From assembly GCF_039851975.1 (NCBI RefSeq), contig NZ_CP156660.1, forward strand, positions 2,423,035 through 2,487,034: a DNA stretch of 64,000 nt. Reading direction: 5' to 3'. Origin of the DNA: Desulfoscipio sp. XC116. Lineage in GTDB: Bacteria; Bacillota; Desulfotomaculia; Desulfotomaculales; Desulfallaceae. Under the pieces are notes generated by a model. The model saw only the letters and a program-made list of their open reading frames with translations, was not told the origin of the DNA and ran no database searches. Position numbers and translations under genes: made by a program. Below are positions 87 through 7,170 of this stretch, piece by piece. Each line of letters begins with the position of its first letter. Positions within the stretch are counted from its first letter, which is position 1.

Positions 87-1061
87 TTATAGAACTGCGT
101 CCATTGCGTTAGAATCAGTACTGTTTACCACACGCATCCCGGCGTCCTTAAATCTTTGCAATGACTGCCGGGCAATAGCCGGGAAGTCCACAACACCCGG
201 GATGCCGGGTACGGGGCTCATGCAGTCCTGTAGAATATAAACCTTATGCACCAGGTTTGGATTAGCCTCATGAATATCCAGCAGATCTTCGATAGTAGCT
301 TTAACACAGTGGCTGGAGGCCTCACCGGCAATATACACCCGATCGTTGCGCATCAATGCGTTAAAAAACTTGGTGTTAAACGAGCCAACATTCAGTGTAT
401 CGGAACCGTCGGTTAACTCTTTAACTTCCGGTGATAGTACGCTATAGTTTTCTGTCAGCGGATGCTCTCCTTTAATTTCGAAATTGGTCCGCACCTTGCG
501 TGCTATCGCGTGAAACAATGCGGCTTCGAAAAGTATCGGCATCAACGCATGGTCTATGCTGCCAAGCATAGTATGAAAGGGCCAGATACACAGGTTATAT
601 TTGCCGGCCGCTTCAAGACGTTTGATATAATCAGCTGCCAAAGCCGGTTGAAACTGCGGCATCCATTTGCCCGACTGAATATCGTTATAAGTTATAATCG
701 TATACGGGGCAGGGTGGAAGCCATTCTTATCAGCCCACCACGACGGATGAAAAATCTGATACGCCCGGTGCGTATCCAGAGAAAGATGGATTTCGCTCAA
801 CTTTTCCAGGTTACCATAGATAAAATCACATAAACGGACCACATCATCAACAGCACCCGGTACTGACAGGCTGCCATCAGGGTGACAAAAACCAATTTGC
901 ATATCAATGACAAATAAGGCTATTTTAATTTGATCGCTGCCAGCCGGCGCTATCTTCCGTTCGTTACGTATTCCGGTGGCTTCTTGAACCACCTTGTCAT
1001 AACGGGGCAGATACAATTCGCTTGCTTTGTTCTTGTTATAATAGCTGGGGAATACCATCAT
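87..1061 (-). CDS. Isochorismatase/nicotinamidase-family cysteine hydrolase
   Basis: A 324-residue alpha/beta hydrolase of the isochorismatase-like fold, the family that includes nicotinamidase. The family nucleophile motif is GEASSHCVKAT with Cys about residue 252, and the N-terminal catalytic Asp lies in FVIDMQIGF (Asp53). A WPFHTMLGS segment near residue 160 matches the WPxHC-like metal/substrate loop of nicotinamidases, but with Thr instead of Cys. The protein is longer than typical PncA (about 180-210 residues), with an extra N-terminal 45 residues and internal insertions. Substrate is therefore uncertain; nicotinamide deamidation is only one possibility. Two adjacent ATG codons (1061, 1058) follow a weak AGG site. 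Downstream lies an unrelated gene scar, so the gene appears monocistronic. Confidence 0.8.
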   Translation of the reverse strand: MMVFPSYYNKNKASELYLPRYDKVVQEATGIRNERKIAPAGSDQIKIALFVIDMQIGFCHPDGSLSVPGAVDDVVRLCDFIYGNLEKLSEIHLSLDTHRAYQIFHPSWWADKNGFHPAPYTIITYNDIQSGKWMPQFQPALAADYIKRLEAAGKYNLCIWPFHTMLGSIDHALMPILFEAALFHAIARKVRTNFEIKGEHPLTENYSVLSPEVKELTDGSDTLNVGSFNTKFFNALMRNDRVYIAGEASSHCVKATIEDLLDIHEANPNLVHKVYILQDCMSPVPGIPGVVDFPAIARQSLQRFKDAGMRVVNSTDSNAMDAVL

Positions 1062-1068
1062 TATTACC

Positions 1069-1262
1069 TCACCTGCTTCACTGCTTTGTTATCCTTTGCA
1101 AAGAGCGCATCGGCAAATTATCGGGCGTTGAAAGAACGCAAGGCGTCTATCCCTTTGCCGGCGCCAAGCATTTTAATGGGTATGTCCAGGCCCTGTTTAA
1201 TAGCAATTACCACGCCGCCTTTGGATGGATGCCGTCCAATTTGGTCAAGGTTACCCAGGCTA
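1069..1262 (-). pseudogene. Decayed second copy of the ftsY 3' end
   Basis: About 190 bp align base for base with the 3' end of the intact ftsY at about 5430-5625. Translated on the minus strand it gives [18 protein letters not shown], as in FtsY, followed by LGAGKGIDALRSFNAR against [16 protein letters not shown]. The next FtsY codon (Glu, GAA) has become a TAA stop, although similarity continues (FADALFAKDNKAV). Upstream, the G domain is missing, so the fragment cannot act as an SRP receptor. It is in the same orientation as the intact gene and adjoins a matching rnc fragment, so it is a relic of a duplication rather than a domain-sized gene. Confidence 0.85.
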
Positions 1263-1340
1263 CCCATCCGGTTAAAACACCATACCCTTTGCATGCATAT
1301 ACACTTGCTGTATGCCAAACCATTCCATCACTATTATCCA

Positions 1341-1422
1341 TTACTTTGCGCATACTTGTCCAGTACTATCCCGGCCGCTTGCTGTTCCGCTTTTTTATCC
1401 GGCCCCGCCCCATGAACAAATA
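1341..1422 (-). pseudogene. Decayed second copy of the rnc 3' end
   Basis: The stretch 1351-1403 matches the 3' end of intact rnc (about 6478-6535), including the codons for the last residues (DKYA). The stop codon TGA is replaced by CAA. At about 1405 the match jumps to rnc sequence near 6848-6865 (CGCCCCATGAACAAATA), which implies an internal deletion of about 310 bp. The preceding 1313-1340 weakly resembles the ftsY-rnc intergenic sequence (TATGCCAAACC against TATGCAAACC). It lies on the same strand and in the same order as the intact ftsY-rnc pair. Confidence 0.8.
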
Positions 1423-1593
1423 TTTGATGTCCCCCAGGGGAAAAATGGTTTTTGGGGTTGTTCCGGCATTGTTATGATATGGCAGTGCCTCGGGATAAAG
1501 GGGTCCAATCCTCCTGCAGCCAAATTATTCCCTTGGTTGTATAAAAACGAAGGAATGAAACAAATTATAGACAGACAAAGGAGGTATGCCTTT
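1423..1593. other. Gene-free stretch between scar and membrane protein
   Basis: About 170 bp after the rnc fragment with no convincing coding or RNA signal. The plus-strand reading frame of the next gene is open back through the scar, but it has no ribosome site there and that extension overlaps the duplicated rnc fragment, so it is not coding. A TATAAA-like box lies near 1540, but I cannot pair it with a good -35. Confidence 0.5.
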
Positions 1594-2055
1594 ATGCAGG
1601 ATGTATTAATACGGTCCCTTGCGGCAGGGCTCGTAGGAGCTCTCATCGTAGACGGTCTGACATTTGCCGCACTGTTATTAGGTATTCCAACCAGCACGCC
1701 ATGGGAGATAGCAGCAGATGTGTTTTTAGTTTCTTCAATAATTAACAGCCCATTAGGATTGACATTGGGGTTAATCGGAACATTTTTTTTGAGCACTGTT
1801 TCCGCGGCTCTAATTTTACTTCTGATGAGAATAACGGGAGGTGACCATCCTGCCTTAAAGGGAATCGCTGCAACCTACTCAATAGGGTTCGTAACCCTGG
1901 GCTTTTTTATGCCCCTTTTGGGAATTGCCCCCTGGGTTCAACGGGAACCTGTTACTTATCTGGTAGCGCTTTTCGTGTTTGCAGTCTTAGGAGCCGTACA
2001 AGGACTGCTGTTAGCAAAATCGGCACTGATATCCTCCCACGGGGTAATTGATTAG
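1594..2055 (+). CDS. Small multi-spanning membrane protein, function unknown
   Basis: The ATG at 1594 is preceded by AAAGGAGG (1577-1584) with normal spacing, so the protein is 153 residues. Four hydrophobic segments are visible: about residues 8-28, 40-75 (probably two passes or a long hairpin), 95-115 and 122-145. The inter-helix loops are short and there is no enzymatic motif. It is the first gene of the AT-rich plus-strand block beside the ftsY scar. I do not recognise the family. Confidence 0.65.
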   Translation: MQDVLIRSLAAGLVGALIVDGLTFAALLLGIPTSTPWEIAADVFLVSSIINSPLGLTLGLIGTFFLSTVSAALILLLMRITGGDHPALKGIAATYSIGFVTLGFFMPLLGIAPWVQREPVTYLVALFVFAVLGAVQGLLLAKSALISSHGVID

Positions 2056-2170
2056 CAATGCGGATACAATCCACCTACGCAAACTTGGGATTTAAATAAT
2101 AGAGCATATCCTTATAATACTGGGGTGCAGCAATTAGTGTAGACAGCTCTAAGTATTAATGCTAAATTAG

Positions 2171-2194
2171 GTTTAGGCTTCATTGGGCCTAAAC
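2171..2194. repeat. 8-bp perfect inverted repeat
   Basis: GTTTAGGC (2171-2178) and GCCTAAAC (2187-2194) flank an 8-nt loop, ending 19 bp before the next gene's start. There is no T-run behind it, so it could be an operator or leader hairpin for the stalk-domain gene or a weak terminator of the preceding gene. Confidence 0.4.
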
Positions 2195-2213
2195 TCAGTT
2201 CCAGAAGAATGGA

Positions 2214-3407
2214 GTGAAGAGATACGAGATGAACAGGTTTATCCTTTTTGCTGTTGCTGTGATCGTTTTTACACTGGCTAACATTGTTCCTGCTATGGCT
2301 GTCGAGCCAATCAGAGTCATTGTGGATGGTAAAGATTTAAGTTTTGATGTTTCGCCCAAGTTGGAAAATGGTCGCCTAATGGTACCAATGCGGGCCATCT
2401 TTGAAGCTTTAGACGTACAGGTTGAGTGGGATAATGTTACCAATACGATTATAGGAGAAAATTTAATAACAAAGGGTAGTAATATTAAACTCGTTGTTGG
2501 CCGGAAAACTGCTTATATAAATGATAAAGCCGTGGAACTAGATATGCCAGCCAAAGTTATTGAAGGCAGAGTATTAGTACCGCTGAGGTTTGTTGCCGAA
2601 GCTTTAGGAGGAAATGTTGAATGGACTGCAGGAAGTAGCGTTGTAAATATTGATAGCGGGTTTTTGCGAACTTCATTAGGCGAATATCGCTTTTGGCTAA
2701 ACAAATCTAATGACGAACTTAACGAACTGTTTGTTGCTGTTGGCAAATCTGTTCCCAAGAAGCTCACTGACTTGAATCTAATCATAAAATACAGACCAGG
2801 CGACGATCCTAGACCAACTTTAACTGCTGAAAAAACGTCGAAAGGTAATGTTTTGTTAACTGCAATAAACAATTATGGCGAACCGCATGTTTTTAATAAT
2901 GTTCACTCAATATATGTAAATTTAGCCAACAATACTCTACAAAAAGCTAGTTTGCATTATGCTTTTCGGTTTGAAGATAACATTAAGTTCTATAAGGAAC
3001 AGATCATCCTTACTGACGGTAAAAAAATTATTTTTATAGATGATAACACAGGAACAATAAGCAAAACGATCAATTATAAGGAACTACCGGGAGAAGGACA
3101 TCAGGAACAAGATGGAGAAGAAGAAAGTTACTTTATAGAAGGAATGGGTGAAAATTACCTTATCATTAGACCCAACAATAGCGGCATATTAACATTGATT
3201 GATCTAAAAAACAATCAAAACATTCAATTGTACAAAAAGCTACTGGGAAAAGAAGAACAGGAATTTGCTGAAACCAACGATGTGCCTTACAAGGGAGATT
3301 GGCTTAAGTTTATAGGTCAAAAGGGAAATTTGCTGCAATTTAAGAACGAAAATACAATCATTGGACCTGATACATCAATTTACACCTATCCAGTACCAGG
3401 TAATTAA
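2214..3407 (+). CDS. Secreted copper amine oxidase N-terminal (stalk) domain protein
   Basis: An N-terminal signal peptide (KRYEMNRF, then a hydrophobic run ending PAMA) is followed by a copper-amine-oxidase-N type stalk domain at about residues 33-150. It has the paired motifs RLMVPMRAIFEALDVQVEWD and RVLVPLRFVAEALGGNVEW typical of these Firmicute surface proteins. The remaining 250 residues are AT-rich in coding and match nothing I recognise. The domain name does not imply oxidase activity; it is a common extracellular module in clostridia. The start could be GTG 2214 or ATG 2229; GGAG at 2211 overlaps the former. Codon use is clearly more AT-rich than in the ftsY side genes. Confidence 0.8.
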   Translation: MKRYEMNRFILFAVAVIVFTLANIVPAMAVEPIRVIVDGKDLSFDVSPKLENGRLMVPMRAIFEALDVQVEWDNVTNTIIGENLITKGSNIKLVVGRKTAYINDKAVELDMPAKVIEGRVLVPLRFVAEALGGNVEWTAGSSVVNIDSGFLRTSLGEYRFWLNKSNDELNELFVAVGKSVPKKLTDLNLIIKYRPGDDPRPTLTAEKTSKGNVLLTAINNYGEPHVFNNVHSIYVNLANNTLQKASLHYAFRFEDNIKFYKEQIILTDGKKIIFIDDNTGTISKTINYKELPGEGHQEQDGEEESYFIEGMGENYLIIRPNNSGILTLIDLKNNQNIQLYKKLLGKEEQEFAETNDVPYKGDWLKFIGQKGNLLQFKNENTIIGPDTSIYTYPVPGN

Positions 3408-3461
3408 TTTGCATTAAAGCTTACCTGCATACATAGTAAGTTGAACACAGGGAGGGCAAAT

Positions 3462-3704
3462 TTGCAAATGGGTTTTAATTGGGTTGGTTTTATTTTTTGG
3501 TTCTTAATTGGAACCTCTGTAATTTTATTTATATGGGGATTATGGGGAAAGTCTTGGAAAATATTATTAAGCAGTGGAGTCGCCTTAACCCTACCATCAC
3601 TATATTTCCTGGGTGCGGAAAATTGGTTTAAAATACTTGCCTTGTTGCCTGTAATAGTTTTTATACTTGCCGCCTATTATTACGCCATGCCCAAAAGAAA
3701 TTAA
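3462..3704 (+). CDS. Small three-helix membrane protein, unknown
   Basis: About 80 residues. GGGAGG at 3450-3455 favours the TTG at 3462 (6-nt spacing); ATG 3468 is an alternative. Three hydrophobic stretches (WVGFIFWFLIGTSVILFIW, ILLSSGVALTLPSLYFLGA, ILALLPVIVFILAAYYYAM) suggest three membrane passes with a short basic tail (PKRN). There is no known motif. It starts 54 bp after the stalk-domain gene on the same strand and may be co-transcribed with it. Confidence 0.6.
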   Translation: MQMGFNWVGFIFWFLIGTSVILFIWGLWGKSWKILLSSGVALTLPSLYFLGAENWFKILALLPVIVFILAAYYYAMPKRN

Positions 3705-3821
3705 AGGATTAAGAGAACAAGATTGTTATATATAGATCCTTTAAATATTATTATCTTTAATAAGTTTCAATCCGGAAATCGCGGGAGGCGCCAGATTCCG
3801 GTTAAAGCCATAGCAATTGAC

Positions 3822-3859
3822 GGTTATAATTCCTTAATTATGATAATAGAATTATAACC
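3822..3859. repeat. Perfect 11-bp inverted repeat upstream of the coiled-coil gene
   Basis: GGTTATAATTC (3822-3832) and GAATTATAACC (3849-3859) flank a 16-nt AT-rich loop that ends 28 bp before the start of the next gene. A second, shorter repeat (CCGGAA/TTCCGG) lies at about 3773-3801. The first looks like an operator or leader hairpin; neither is followed by a T-run on the plus strand. Confidence 0.5.
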
Positions 3860-3887
3860 CTACTTCCACTTAGAGAAGAGAGGGATA

Positions 3888-4382
3888 TTGGTGGGGAGTG
3901 TCAAAAAATCCGAACTTGATGAACTGAGAGATGCAATAATTGAACTACAAAACAAAGTCGCTGTGTTAGAAGAGAATCAGTTAAGGTTAAGGGCAACCAA
4001 ACTGTCCGACTCAAGTTATCCTTATTGGAATTACTTGCTGGGATTTGGCATCCGAGATGAAGTAAGAAGGAATATTGAATACGCTTTATTTATTTTGTCT
4101 GAAAGATTGTCTGGTAATAACATAATAATGGCTGCGAGCGATGAGTTATCTGATAAGATGCTAGATAGCGATGATATCTATGTCACGAAAAATAAAGCGA
4201 ATCTGTATCCTAAAGAATTATTTGATGCGGGAATCCCAACCTATAAAGACACAGTAAATATTATTATGAAAATTATGGAGATTGATGACGAAGTAGTTGT
4301 ATTTGATTTGCTTTTATCAATATATTGGCAGAGTATGTTTAAAGAATTAATGAAACACTTGCTAATTCCCAACCTGAAATAA
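3888..4382 (+). CDS. Coiled-coil hypothetical protein
   Basis: 164 residues starting with TTG at 3888 (or GTG 3891) behind AGAGAAGAGAGGG. Residues about 5-35 have heptad spacing (ELDELRDAIIELQNKVAVLEENQLRL), a likely coiled coil. The rest is a mixed helical, acidic domain without membrane segments or signal peptide. No family recognised. It sits between a palindromic leader and a lipoprotein gene within the AT-rich block. Confidence 0.6.
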   Translation: MVGSVKKSELDELRDAIIELQNKVAVLEENQLRLRATKLSDSSYPYWNYLLGFGIRDEVRRNIEYALFILSERLSGNNIIMAASDELSDKMLDSDDIYVTKNKANLYPKELFDAGIPTYKDTVNIIMKIMEIDDEVVVFDLLLSIYWQSMFKELMKHLLIPNLK

Positions 4383-4425
4383 AGGTTTCAATATAAAGAA
4401 TTAAGAAAAAATGAAAGGATTCATT

Positions 4426-5040
4426 ATGAGTAAGATTTTTACTGCTATTTTATTATTATTGGGACTTGTGCAATTATTTGGATGCAGCATTTTTAATGGA
4501 AAAAGTCCAAATGATTCCAATAACAGCACAATAAAAATAAATGATACAAATCATGTAATTGATTCATCCAACTATGAAAAAGATATTATAGAATTGATTA
4601 AGAACAATATAAAAAATGACTTTGAAAATACTGATCTTACTATAAAAGAAATAAATCCTGTTGAAAATTACTCTTTTGTTATATTTCTCATAAAACAAAA
4701 TAATATATTACATGAGGGATTAGCTTGTATAGAAAAGGAACATAAATTTTACAAACTAAATGAGATGGACATAGCTAAGGTTGATTTAAAGGCCCCATTC
4801 ACAAAACATACTATCATCTCATCGCTAAATGATGGTAGAGATTACATATTAATAGGTGGATATATTAATGATGAGAATATAAATGAAGTACATATTGAAT
4901 ATAAGAATAGCGCTGTTAATGTGATAGAAATCGGCCAAAATCAAAACACATACATGAATTACATGATAGGTGATATAAAATATATTAAGGAAATAGTTGG
5001 ATTTAACGAAACAAACAAGATATATTCATACGAATTTTAG
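4426..5040 (+). CDS. Putative lipoprotein, unknown function
   Basis: ATG 4426 is chosen because GAAAGGA (4413-4419) is well placed before it; ATG 4411 lies at that site itself and is less likely. The 204-residue product begins MSKIFTAILLLLGLVQLFGC, a lipoprotein signal with lipobox LFGC (Cys20). A Ser/Asn/Thr-rich linker follows, then a polar, AT-rich-coded domain with no motif I know. It should be anchored to the outer face of the membrane. The coding is very A+T-rich, the most extreme of the accessory block. Confidence 0.65.
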   Translation: MSKIFTAILLLLGLVQLFGCSIFNGKSPNDSNNSTIKINDTNHVIDSSNYEKDIIELIKNNIKNDFENTDLTIKEINPVENYSFVIFLIKQNNILHEGLACIEKEHKFYKLNEMDIAKVDLKAPFTKHTIISSLNDGRDYILIGGYINDENINEVHIEYKNSAVNVIEIGQNQNTYMNYMIGDIKYIKEIVGFNETNKIYSYEF

Positions 5041-5082
5041 GAAGTATGAATAATTCCGTGTAAAGGAGCGGCGGCGACAAGG

Positions 5083-5283
5083 ATGGCGGGTATTTCAGTA
5101 CATGCATTAGGACGCAGATTAGGAATGTATGTGGCAAATAAGACAGTCAACCCAAACCAAGCGGAATTGCTGGGATACGGAGCCGAAATTATATTGGGGA
5201 GTATTCTTAAACTGGTTGTTCTTTTTTCAATAGCTGCTTTGTTAAAAGTAGTTTATGAAGTATCAATACAAGCTTATTTATGA
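5083..5283 (+). pseudogene. Truncated AgrB-like protein (N-terminal third only)
   Basis: A 66-residue frame from ATG 5083, with AAAGGAG upstream (5062-5068). Residues 24-55 (ELLGYGAEIILGSILKLV and following) resemble the first membrane segment of AgrB, the membrane protease that processes AgrD autoinducer peptides. Full AgrB is about 200 residues; here the frame stops before the region that carries the catalytic His and Cys. No AgrD-like peptide or remaining AgrB sequence lies downstream before ftsY. Probably a remnant left by a deletion or recombination at the block edge, although expression of a short peptide cannot be excluded. Confidence 0.6.
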
Positions 5284-5329
5284 TGTATGATCCTGAACTA
5301 CCTAAAAGTAACCAGACTGCATGACAAGT

Positions 5330-5363
5330 TAACCCGGAAGACCTTGGTCGGTCTTCCGGGTTA
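5330..5363. terminator. Perfect 14-bp hairpin between convergent genes
   Basis: TAACCCGGAAGACC (5330-5343) and GGTCTTCCGGGTTA (5350-5363) flank a 6-nt loop. It sits between the plus-strand accessory block and the 3' end of ftsY (minus), where a bidirectional terminator is expected. No long T-run follows on either strand, so it may work as a stem-only terminator. Confidence 0.65.
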
Positions 5364-5422
5364 GCCCAATGAAGTAACCCCCTCGGCGCATTGCTGCTTC
5401 CCGTCCACTCATTTCGCAAAAA

Positions 5423-6364
5423 TCATCCTGCCTGCTCCGCCGCTTGGTTATCCTTTACAAACAGCGCATCGGCAAATTCCCGGGCGTCGAAAGGACGCAA
5501 GTCGTCTATCCCTTCGCCGACACCGATCATTTTAATGGGTATGTCCAGACCTTGTTTAATAGCAATTACCACGCCGCCTTTGGCGGTGCCGTCCAGTTTG
5601 GTCAGGGCCACCCCGGTCACCCCCACCGCCTCTTTGAAAAGGCGGGCCTGGCTGATGGCATTTTGCCCGGTGGTGGCGTCCAGCACCAGCAGCACCTCAT
5701 GAGGGGCGCCCGGCATTTCCCGTCCCAGCACCCGGTGTACCTTTTTCAATTCCTCCATCAAGTTGCTCTTAGTGTGCAGCCGGCCCGCGGTGTCCACGAT
5801 AAGCACATCAATTTTCCTGGCCCGGGCGGCCTGCAGCGAATCAAAAGCCACAGCGGCGGGATCTGAGCCCTCGGAGTGCTTGATCACGGCCCCCCCCACC
5901 CGGTTGCCCCATATTTCCAGCTGGTCAATGGCCGCCGCCCGAAATGTATCCGCGGCGCTTAGCAGCACACTTTTGCCGCTTTCCTTAAAATAGTGGGCCA
6001 GTTTACCAATGGTCGTAGTTTTGCCCACGCCGTTAACTCCCACCACCATGATTACCGCCGGCTGCTCGCCGTCTATATTGATTGAGCCGGTTTCTTCGCC
6101 CAGAATTCCTTGAATAAGCTCCTTCAGCACGGCCCGTAATTCTTCGGGATCGCCAATCCGGCGTTTTTTCACTTCACTGCGCAGGTTTTCAACCAGCTCC
6201 AACGAGGCGTCAATGCCCACGTCGGCTTGGATCAACGCTTCTTCCAGCTCCTCGTATAGTTCCTCATCGATAACCTTGCGACCGGTGACAATAGCATCAA
6301 TTTTCTCCACGAAATTTTTTCTGGTTTTACTCAGGCCATCCTTTAATTTACTAAATAAACCCAT
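5423..6364 (-). CDS. ftsY: Signal recognition particle receptor FtsY
   Basis: A 313-residue SRP receptor GTPase that docks ribosome-nascent chain-SRP complexes at the membrane. The N domain (about 25-90) precedes the G domain, with P-loop GVNGVGKTT (109-117), DTFRAAA (139-145), DTAGR and the TKLD specificity motif followed by GTAKGG. It lacks the long acidic A domain of E. coli FtsY, as is usual in Firmicutes, and starts [14 protein letters not shown], an amphipathic membrane-targeting helix. It lies 107 bp after rnc on the same strand. In B. subtilis smc lies between these genes; here it is absent. A decayed copy of its 3' end lies at 1069-1262. Confidence 0.97.
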
Positions 6365-6471
6365 TATATAACAGACCTCCCGGTTTAATAGCTATGCAAA
6401 CCGCTGAGCTATCAACGTTTAACGCCACGCATCTACATTGCCAATTGGCCGCTATTTCAGACTTCCGTACT

Positions 6472-7170
6472 TCACGCATACTTGTCCAGCGCCATCCTGG
6501 CCGCTTGCTGTTCCGCTTCTTTTTTGGTCCGGCCCTGCCCCCAGCCAAGTCTTTTACCCCTGTATTCCACCGCCGCTGTAAATATTTTATCATGATCGGG
6601 GCCTTCTTCATCAATAATAAAGTAGTGAATGGGGTCAGCGCTTTTACGCTGCAATATTTCCTGTAGATCTGTTTTATAATCGCGCACTGTCTGACCTGAT
6701 TTTACCTCTTCGATAATATCGGCCAACTGCTGCAAGGCTACCCGGCGGGCTTCTTCCAAACCCGCATCCAGGTAAACAGAACCAAGCAGGGCTTCAAAGG
6801 CGTCCGCCAGCAAAGAAGGTCTTTCCCTGCCACCGGAATGCTCTTCACCCCGCCCCATGAACAAATACCGGCCCAATTCCAGGCGTTGGGCCACCGCGGC
6901 CAGAGAAGGTTCGCATACCGTCAGGGCGCGCATTTTGGTCAGGTCACCCTCAGTCTTATGGGAGAAAGTGCGATAATAATAATCGCTGATGATTAATTCC
7001 AGTACAGCATCTCCTAAGAATTCCAACCGTTCATTGTTCTGCTCTTCCCGGCCCCTGTTTTCATATGTAAAAGAGCTGTGCACGAGCGCCAGGCGCAACA
7101 GTTCCGGGTTGCGCCAAACGAAGTGCACTTTTTTTTGCAAATCATCAATGATACTGTTAAACTGGCCCAT
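6472..7170 (-). CDS. rnc: Ribonuclease III
   Basis: 232-residue double-strand-specific endoribonuclease for rRNA processing and mRNA decay. The signature NERLEFLGDAVLE (46-58) and the second acidic metal-binding segment LADAFEALLGSVYLD (121-135) are intact. A C-terminal dsRNA-binding domain (about 160-230) ends in KKEAEQQAARMAL. ATG 7170 follows AAAGGA with 10-nt spacing, 2 bp after fabF, so it is probably read with the fab operon. A fragment of its 3' end is duplicated at 1341-1422. Confidence 0.97.
   Translation of the reverse strand: MGQFNSIIDDLQKKVHFVWRNPELLRLALVHSSFTYENRGREEQNNERLEFLGDAVLELIISDYYYRTFSHKTEGDLTKMRALTVCEPSLAAVAQRLELGRYLFMGRGEEHSGGRERPSLLADAFEALLGSVYLDAGLEEARRVALQQLADIIEEVKSGQTVRDYKTDLQEILQRKSADPIHYFIIDEEGPDHDKIFTAAVEYRGKRLGWGQGRTKKEAEQQAARMALDKYA

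Follow-up and report, generated by a model that had tools for sequence, protein, structure and literature searches.

A decayed ftsY–rnc copy and the remains of an agr locus in a variable interval of the Desulfoscipio sp. XC116 chromosome

The window analysed here is a stretch of 64,000 nucleotides from Desulfoscipio sp. XC116 (strain L in the following; replicons of 4,259,676 and 1,530 bases), C1:2423035-2487034. On the minus strand it carries intact ftsY (5423..6364) and intact rnc (6472..7170), and at its left end an isochorismatase-like accessory gene (87..1061), also on the minus strand. The PF00857 match of this gene scores 21.6 bits and does not reach the cut-off of 27, and no match at E 1e-40 occurs in any of the six same-genus relatives (6/6). 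Right behind it on the same strand, outside the window, C1:2421527-2423002 encodes a protein of 491 aa that contains an HTH domain and resembles HipA_C weakly, with a score below the cut-off.

Between the isochorismatase-like gene and ftsY lies a block of plus-strand genes. The 165-aa membrane protein (1558..2055) belongs to no Pfam family and is found, besides itself, only in genome G003 (best 33%). It is followed by a stalk protein with a copper amine oxidase N-terminal domain (2229..3407), a region encoding a small membrane protein, TM78 (3403..3723), an orphan protein of 163 aa, or 164 with an upstream start (3891..4382), and a lipoprotein-like protein (4411..5040). For the 163-aa protein, no match at E 1e-8 was obtained in 112 other genomes of the order and none in phages. 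The lipoprotein has no match in plasmids and none confirmed in viral contigs. Searching the stalk protein against plasmids gave 59 records, mostly to the stalk domain, with one covering 86% of the query at 28% identity; it also accounts for the only match, a weak PHROG match, of the seven accessory proteins against NCBIfam, PHROGs and PADLOC. At 36.5% GC, the block (1423-5412) is undercut by none of 121 sliding 4-kb windows of the 64 kb, some of which overlap it. The first-pass annotation had described six AT-rich accessory genes here. The low GC content of the block stands, but the first of these genes (1558-2055) has 46% GC and the last (5083-5283) is a fragment of agrB.

Positions 1064-1422 are a decayed, internally deleted duplicate of the ftsY-rnc end in which the order and strand of the pair are kept. 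The decayed ftsY 3' end (1064..1265, minus strand) aligns from 1072 to 1265 with 5431-5622 of the strain's own ftsY in 165/194 columns (85%, E 1e-52), and by eye the homology extends to the old stop codon at 1064-1066. The decayed rnc 3' end (1342..1411, minus strand) aligns with 6468-6541 in 61/74 columns (82%, E 8e-15). It is joined at a 9-nt near-microhomology to an exact 20/20 copy of the rnc interior (1403..1422, minus strand; source 6848-6867), for which about 2e-7 such matches are expected by chance. Positions 1403-1411 belong to both rnc pieces, and as the two source sites are identical there at 8/9 bases, we place the 315-nt deletion inside the rnc copy on microhomology. Agreement of source sites at a junction is the usual mark of a deletion of this kind. 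The local score is 244 for the whole dead copy and 88 for the part after 1265; 200 shuffles of the full copy never exceeded 31. A linker (1266..1341) occupies the place where the ftsY body and the ftsY-rnc gap would be; in the comparison of 1265-1341 no homology was detected, the score being reached by 252/300 shuffles for the strain's own region and by 286/300 for D. gibsoniae. Positions 1423-1600 show nothing beyond shuffles against the intact ftsY-rnc region, and a search of the strain L genome with the dead copy listed no matches apart from itself and the ends of the intact ftsY and rnc. The dead ftsY end carries a nonsense codon, TAA replacing Glu at codon -18 from the end, and a 2-nt insertion that shifts the frame. 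The likeness of 1069-1262 to the ftsY 3' end, the two rnc pieces within 1341-1422 in intact order and strand, the internal deletions and the TAA had all been noticed in the first-pass annotation, and they are borne out by these alignments, which extend the ftsY part to 1064 and add the insertion.

The dead copy groups with the ftsY of its own genome. In a quartet of the copy, the strain's own ftsY and the ftsY of D. gibsoniae Groll (genome G013) and genome G015, 11 sites pair the copy with its own ftsY and 3 and 1 support the alternatives. Trees give the same placement with ultrafast bootstrap values of 86, 89 and 90, and in the tree grouping the two the dead copy has a branch of 0.21, compared with 0.00-0.01 for the intact gene. 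Forcing the copy together with the D. gibsoniae ftsY fits more poorly, at an AU p of 0.067 that falls short of formal rejection. With no more than about 200 columns available from the copy, support for this parentage is moderate. Counted over codon positions 1/2/3, the copy has 11/3/5 changes of its own and the intact ftsY 1/0/2. Together with the collinear homology to the intact pair, the nonsense codon, the insertion and the large deletions, this relaxed constraint marks a pseudogene, and the proposed duplication followed by decay of one copy is thereby supported. The pattern fits copies that would have split after the lineages of strain L and D. gibsoniae had parted, with one of them remaining under selection. 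The intact ftsY itself has changed at five sites (codons -57, -43, -11, -7 and -2), with no clear clustering.

At its left end the dead copy runs directly into the neighbouring gene. The old ftsY stop sits 2 nt before the ATG (at 1061) of the isochorismatase-like gene, and with this spacing the likely ribosome-binding site of that gene (GAGG) falls inside the old last codons of ftsY. The old ftsY end may thus supply the ribosome-binding site of an unrelated gene. A promoter-like TGGACA-18-GATAAT on the minus strand (1362-1333) spans the rnc scar and the linker and faces the isochorismatase-like gene; in the promoter scan, 21 sites were found compared with 17.3 in shuffles, so that matches are hardly commoner than chance.

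Part of the AT-rich block is a demolished agr (quorum-sensing) locus that, judged by its sequence, was formerly convergent with ftsY. The TM78 region, the start of agrA, the lipoprotein gene and pieces of agrB and agrD match the agr neighbourhood of D. gibsoniae at 73-93% on the same strand. The individual values are 85% for the TM78 region, 75% for the agrA upstream region and first codons (3716..3822, plus strand), 89% in amino acids and 93% in nucleotides for the lipoprotein, and 92% for a truncated agrB (5062..5267, plus strand; PF04647), which retains the 5' third with its leader. An internal deletion has fused this agrB to the agrD 3' end (5267..5306, plus strand), as seen in the alignment to D. 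gibsoniae. The remainder of agrA was not found here, and the window contains no complete agr gene, only the agrB 5' third, the agrD 3' end and the agrA start. Since only fragments remain, agr cannot function there. At the nucleotide level, the genes of the 165-aa, stalk and 163-aa proteins match nothing in the agr locus of D. gibsoniae. Beyond the left edge of the window, about 10 kb from the dead ftsY, there are further remains of agr: a pre-agrB fragment (89%) and an agrC fragment (86%), in the same orientation, flank an IS200-type transposase gene (C1:2413356-2414332). Pieces of agr are thus present on both sides of the dead ftsY.

In D. gibsoniae, a protein encoded at 3.084 Mb is 89% identical to the lipoprotein of 4411-5040, and an agr locus surrounds it. 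Domains of AgrB (PF04647, 1.4e-35), AgrC (PF14501 and PF02518, GHKL) and AgrA (PF00072 and PF04397, LytTR) are encoded close together. The agrD candidate is a 49-aa ORF overlapping the end of agrB; it has no Pfam match, and we take its tail to be AgrD-like. The order is agrB1-agrD1-terminator-ftsY remnant-agrA-agrC-...-agrB2-agrD2. Window positions 5267-5641 align in a single piece with C1:3071445-3071807 of D. gibsoniae (73%, E 5e-55), and the shared stretch there comprises the agrD end, the terminator and a decayed ftsY 3' end, the intact ftsY being about 240 kb away. From this collinearity we infer that agr once adjoined ftsY. In the window, the aligned terminator-like hairpin lies between the convergent agrD and ftsY (5328..5365) and is strong on both strands (-30.2 and -28.6 kcal/mol, z -6.1 each). 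The D. gibsoniae remnant agrees with its own ftsY in 168/216 columns and with the ftsY of strain L in 155/216, and its score against the latter is 92, with a maximum of 23 in 500 shuffles. No rnc remnant was detected next to it. The search of 16 genomes with the dead copy missed this remnant, which was found by locus alignment, so scars of ftsY in other genomes may be missed as well. Among 80 ftsY loci of other genomes, the search for agr genes returned weak two-component matches only. The two D. gibsoniae agrBD units are 93-96% alike where shared, and agrB2 is internally deleted, without approximately codons 69-178. The deletion joining agrB to agrD in strain L begins at nearly the same codon, perhaps a common weak point.

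The surroundings of these scars are variable throughout the genus. Both ftsY and mtnA are present in 16/16 genomes of the family, and the distance between them could be measured in 10/16, the other 6/16 having the two genes on separate contigs. Within Desulfoscipio the gap is 7.2 kb (G015), 32.9 kb (D. gibsoniae), 34.3 kb (strain L) and 88.3 kb (G014), and in three further genomes of the genus (G010, G011, G012) the ftsY contig continues for 25.7, 39.1 and 24.4 kb without mtnA. In other genera the gap is 0.9-1.2 kb in five of the six measurable genomes (G005-G009) and 7.6 kb in G003. Constant core flanks thus enclose cargo that varies among genomes and is nearly absent elsewhere (five genomes with a gap of 0.9-1.2 kb, five with 7.2-88.3 kb), and the interval is an insertion hotspot, in a comparison made between species with one genome per species. 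Between strain L and D. gibsoniae, a blastn comparison of the ftsY-mtnP interval at E 1e-5 gave as sole matches those of the dead copy to intact ftsY and rnc. In genomes from beyond the family, the flank retrieved downstream of ftsY contains mtnA at 6/80 loci, including those of Pelotomaculum and Desulfofundulus. The scan of relatives kept the best 80 of 579, none of them named as Desulfoscipio. The suggestion that gene acquisition recurs downstream of ftsY therefore holds, but the ftsY 3' end as a defined target does not, the site being the whole ftsY-mtnP interval.

For the cargo of strain L, 36/43 ORFs of the interval were scanned with Pfam. The matches are to transporters, two-component genes, sigma factors and IS remnants, and those of transposon type are limited to a fragment of IstB, a Y1_Tnp of IS200 type and a piece of Y2_Tnp. 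No integrase, site-specific recombinase or phage gene was found in these 36/43 ORFs, and a phage or conjugative origin of the interval is unsupported by them. Left of the window, the same hotspot holds a direct repeat (92% over 468 columns; C1:2416263-2416706 and 2420248-2420715, about 4 kb apart) that brackets ECF sigma factor, zf-HC2 and LiaF-like genes, a second duplication bracketing cargo.

How many duplications the two scars record can be addressed by constrained trees. One duplication with no conversion is rejected, since trees constrained to unite the two dead copies have an AU p of 0.0027, or 0.0014 if the two live genes are united as well. Either two duplications took place, or one followed by gene conversion while the copies were still whole. 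The agrB piece of strain L has 12 sites in common with unit 1 alone (8 in the leader) and 5 with unit 2 alone, and at 11 sites where the two units agree it departs from both. It is thus about equidistant from the two D. gibsoniae units, with no clear orthologue among them.

We lean towards reading 1064-1422 as the dead copy of a tandem agr-ftsY-rnc duplication that arose within the insertion hotspot and later decayed. The agr locus would formerly have stood tail to tail with ftsY inside the ftsY-mtnP interval, and a segment from agr through ftsY into rnc would have been duplicated to give agr-ftsY'-rnc'(cut)-agr-ftsY-rnc. If its two endpoints fell upstream of agrA and within ftsY or rnc, the duplication would have placed a truncated ftsY end between two agr units. 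Redundant, truncated at the 5' end and probably lacking a promoter, the left copy would then have decayed through point changes, the frameshift and the microhomology deletion, with loss of most of ftsY'. The agr copies would have eroded as well, agrA being reduced to its start, agrB fused to agrD and a piece of agrC left further to the left. Other genes, including the isochorismatase-like gene, would have arrived, and the old ftsY end would have become the likely ribosome-binding site of that gene. An ftsY end between two agr units, as found in D. gibsoniae, is the architecture that a tandem duplication leaves and supports this reading; strain L shows the eroded form. Against it counts that the agr unit left of the dead copy in strain L consists of two fragments only, that two duplications or a gene conversion have to be assumed, that the D. 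gibsoniae scar comes with no detected rnc remnant, that the agrB piece of strain L favours neither D. gibsoniae unit, and that three genes of the block lack a nucleotide counterpart in the D. gibsoniae locus. Later shuffling is also needed, because the agr gene order differs, the lipoprotein gene and TM78 preceding agrB1 in D. gibsoniae. The tight 2-nt junction with the isochorismatase-like gene and the ribosome-binding site in the ftsY end, as if both had been neighbours in a donor, are explained somewhat better by a Campbell-type or one-sided homologous integration than by the tandem route; such an integration would account for the strain L scar itself as well. DNA of a near relative carrying an ftsY-rnc end and other cargo would have recombined at ftsY or rnc, and a truncated second copy would have decayed. 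The unrelated cargo of the hotspot in strain L and D. gibsoniae, with integrase unseen, would agree with such an event, as would a lipoprotein gene that, at 93% of nucleotides, is closer to D. gibsoniae than ftsY is (808/939, 86%). The tight grouping of the dead copy with its own ftsY, however, requires the donor to be a very close relative, and the five changes of the intact ftsY, which are not clearly clustered, give no clear sign of a foreign 3' end. We regard this integration as rather unlikely.

The same high identities, with shared pieces up to 93% identical and thus above ftsY, would be expected if the block and the ftsY end had been transferred horizontally between a strain-L-like lineage and D. 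gibsoniae, which would give both scars one origin. A tree in which the D. gibsoniae remnant branches from the stem of the strain L pair is indeed tolerated (AU p 0.38, compared with 0.50 for grouping with its own ftsY), and two quartets that include G010 show no preference (3/4/4 and 3/4/5). Such a transfer is nevertheless improbable, as the remnant is nearer to the ftsY of D. gibsoniae than to that of strain L, a further quartet favours D. gibsoniae (6 vs 2 and 3), and grouping the remnant with the intact ftsY of strain L alone is rejected (AU p 0.0026). Entry of a site-specific integrative element into the ftsY 3' end, with a replacement end brought along and the old one displaced, would account for the presence of a directly oriented, decayed 3' end beyond foreign DNA and for an agrD-terminator directly against the ftsY end in both species. 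We consider it very improbable and unsupported: the duplicate extends past ftsY into the rnc interior, beyond an attachment core, the 36/43 scanned ORFs contain no integrase or site-specific recombinase, and the sequence behind ftsY differs between the species.

The interval resembles known hotspots between core genes. Oliveira et al. 2017 (PMC5635113) describe horizontal-transfer hotspots that lie between core genes; many of these hotspots lack mobile elements, and recombination occurs at the flanking core genes. The present interval is alike in its constant core flanks (ftsY and mtnP-mtnA), its varied cargo, the unseen integrase with IS remnants only, and the involvement of a flanking core gene in recombination. 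It differs from the hotspots described there in being compared between species, with one genome each, rather than between strains within a species, and in the duplicate of a flanking core gene left behind in two species. Duplication of a gene 3' end beyond foreign DNA is shared with 3'-end integrative elements such as SGI1 at trmE, as described in PMC8409611, but here the duplicate includes a second gene, rnc, and an integrase was not found in the scanned ORFs. With the agr locus (AgrB, AgrD, AgrC, AgrA), D. gibsoniae shares an AgrB, an AgrD-like peptide, a GHKL kinase and a LytTR regulator encoded close together; the window differs in keeping fragments only, and none of the other loci tested showed agr arranged tail to tail with ftsY. 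Among the matches listed for ftsY as a genomic-island site or for agr in Desulfotomaculum, no paper title concerned this locus. The agr wreck in the AT-rich block and the second ftsY scar in D. gibsoniae go beyond what the first-pass annotation had noticed.

The class of event is ordinary, namely segmental duplication, erosion and turnover in a hotspot, and the locus does not reveal a new molecular system, but the event is unusually well recorded. Hotspots of insertion that lack mobile elements are common (PMC5635113), but their remodelling is seldom visible. Here two species keep dead copies of a flanking housekeeping gene, in each case beside agr, and the live gene is available for comparison. 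As a doubtful extension, the agr locus of Desulfoscipio might behave as a cassette that is amplified and relocated again and again, picking up the convergent ftsY end at each duplication, with two captures in two species and one of them reused as a translation start region. The scars suggest that this stretch has been repeatedly duplicated and rebuilt. They indicate that the cargo of the hotspot was rearranged by duplications extending into the core genome, with relocation and destruction of a quorum-sensing locus along the way.
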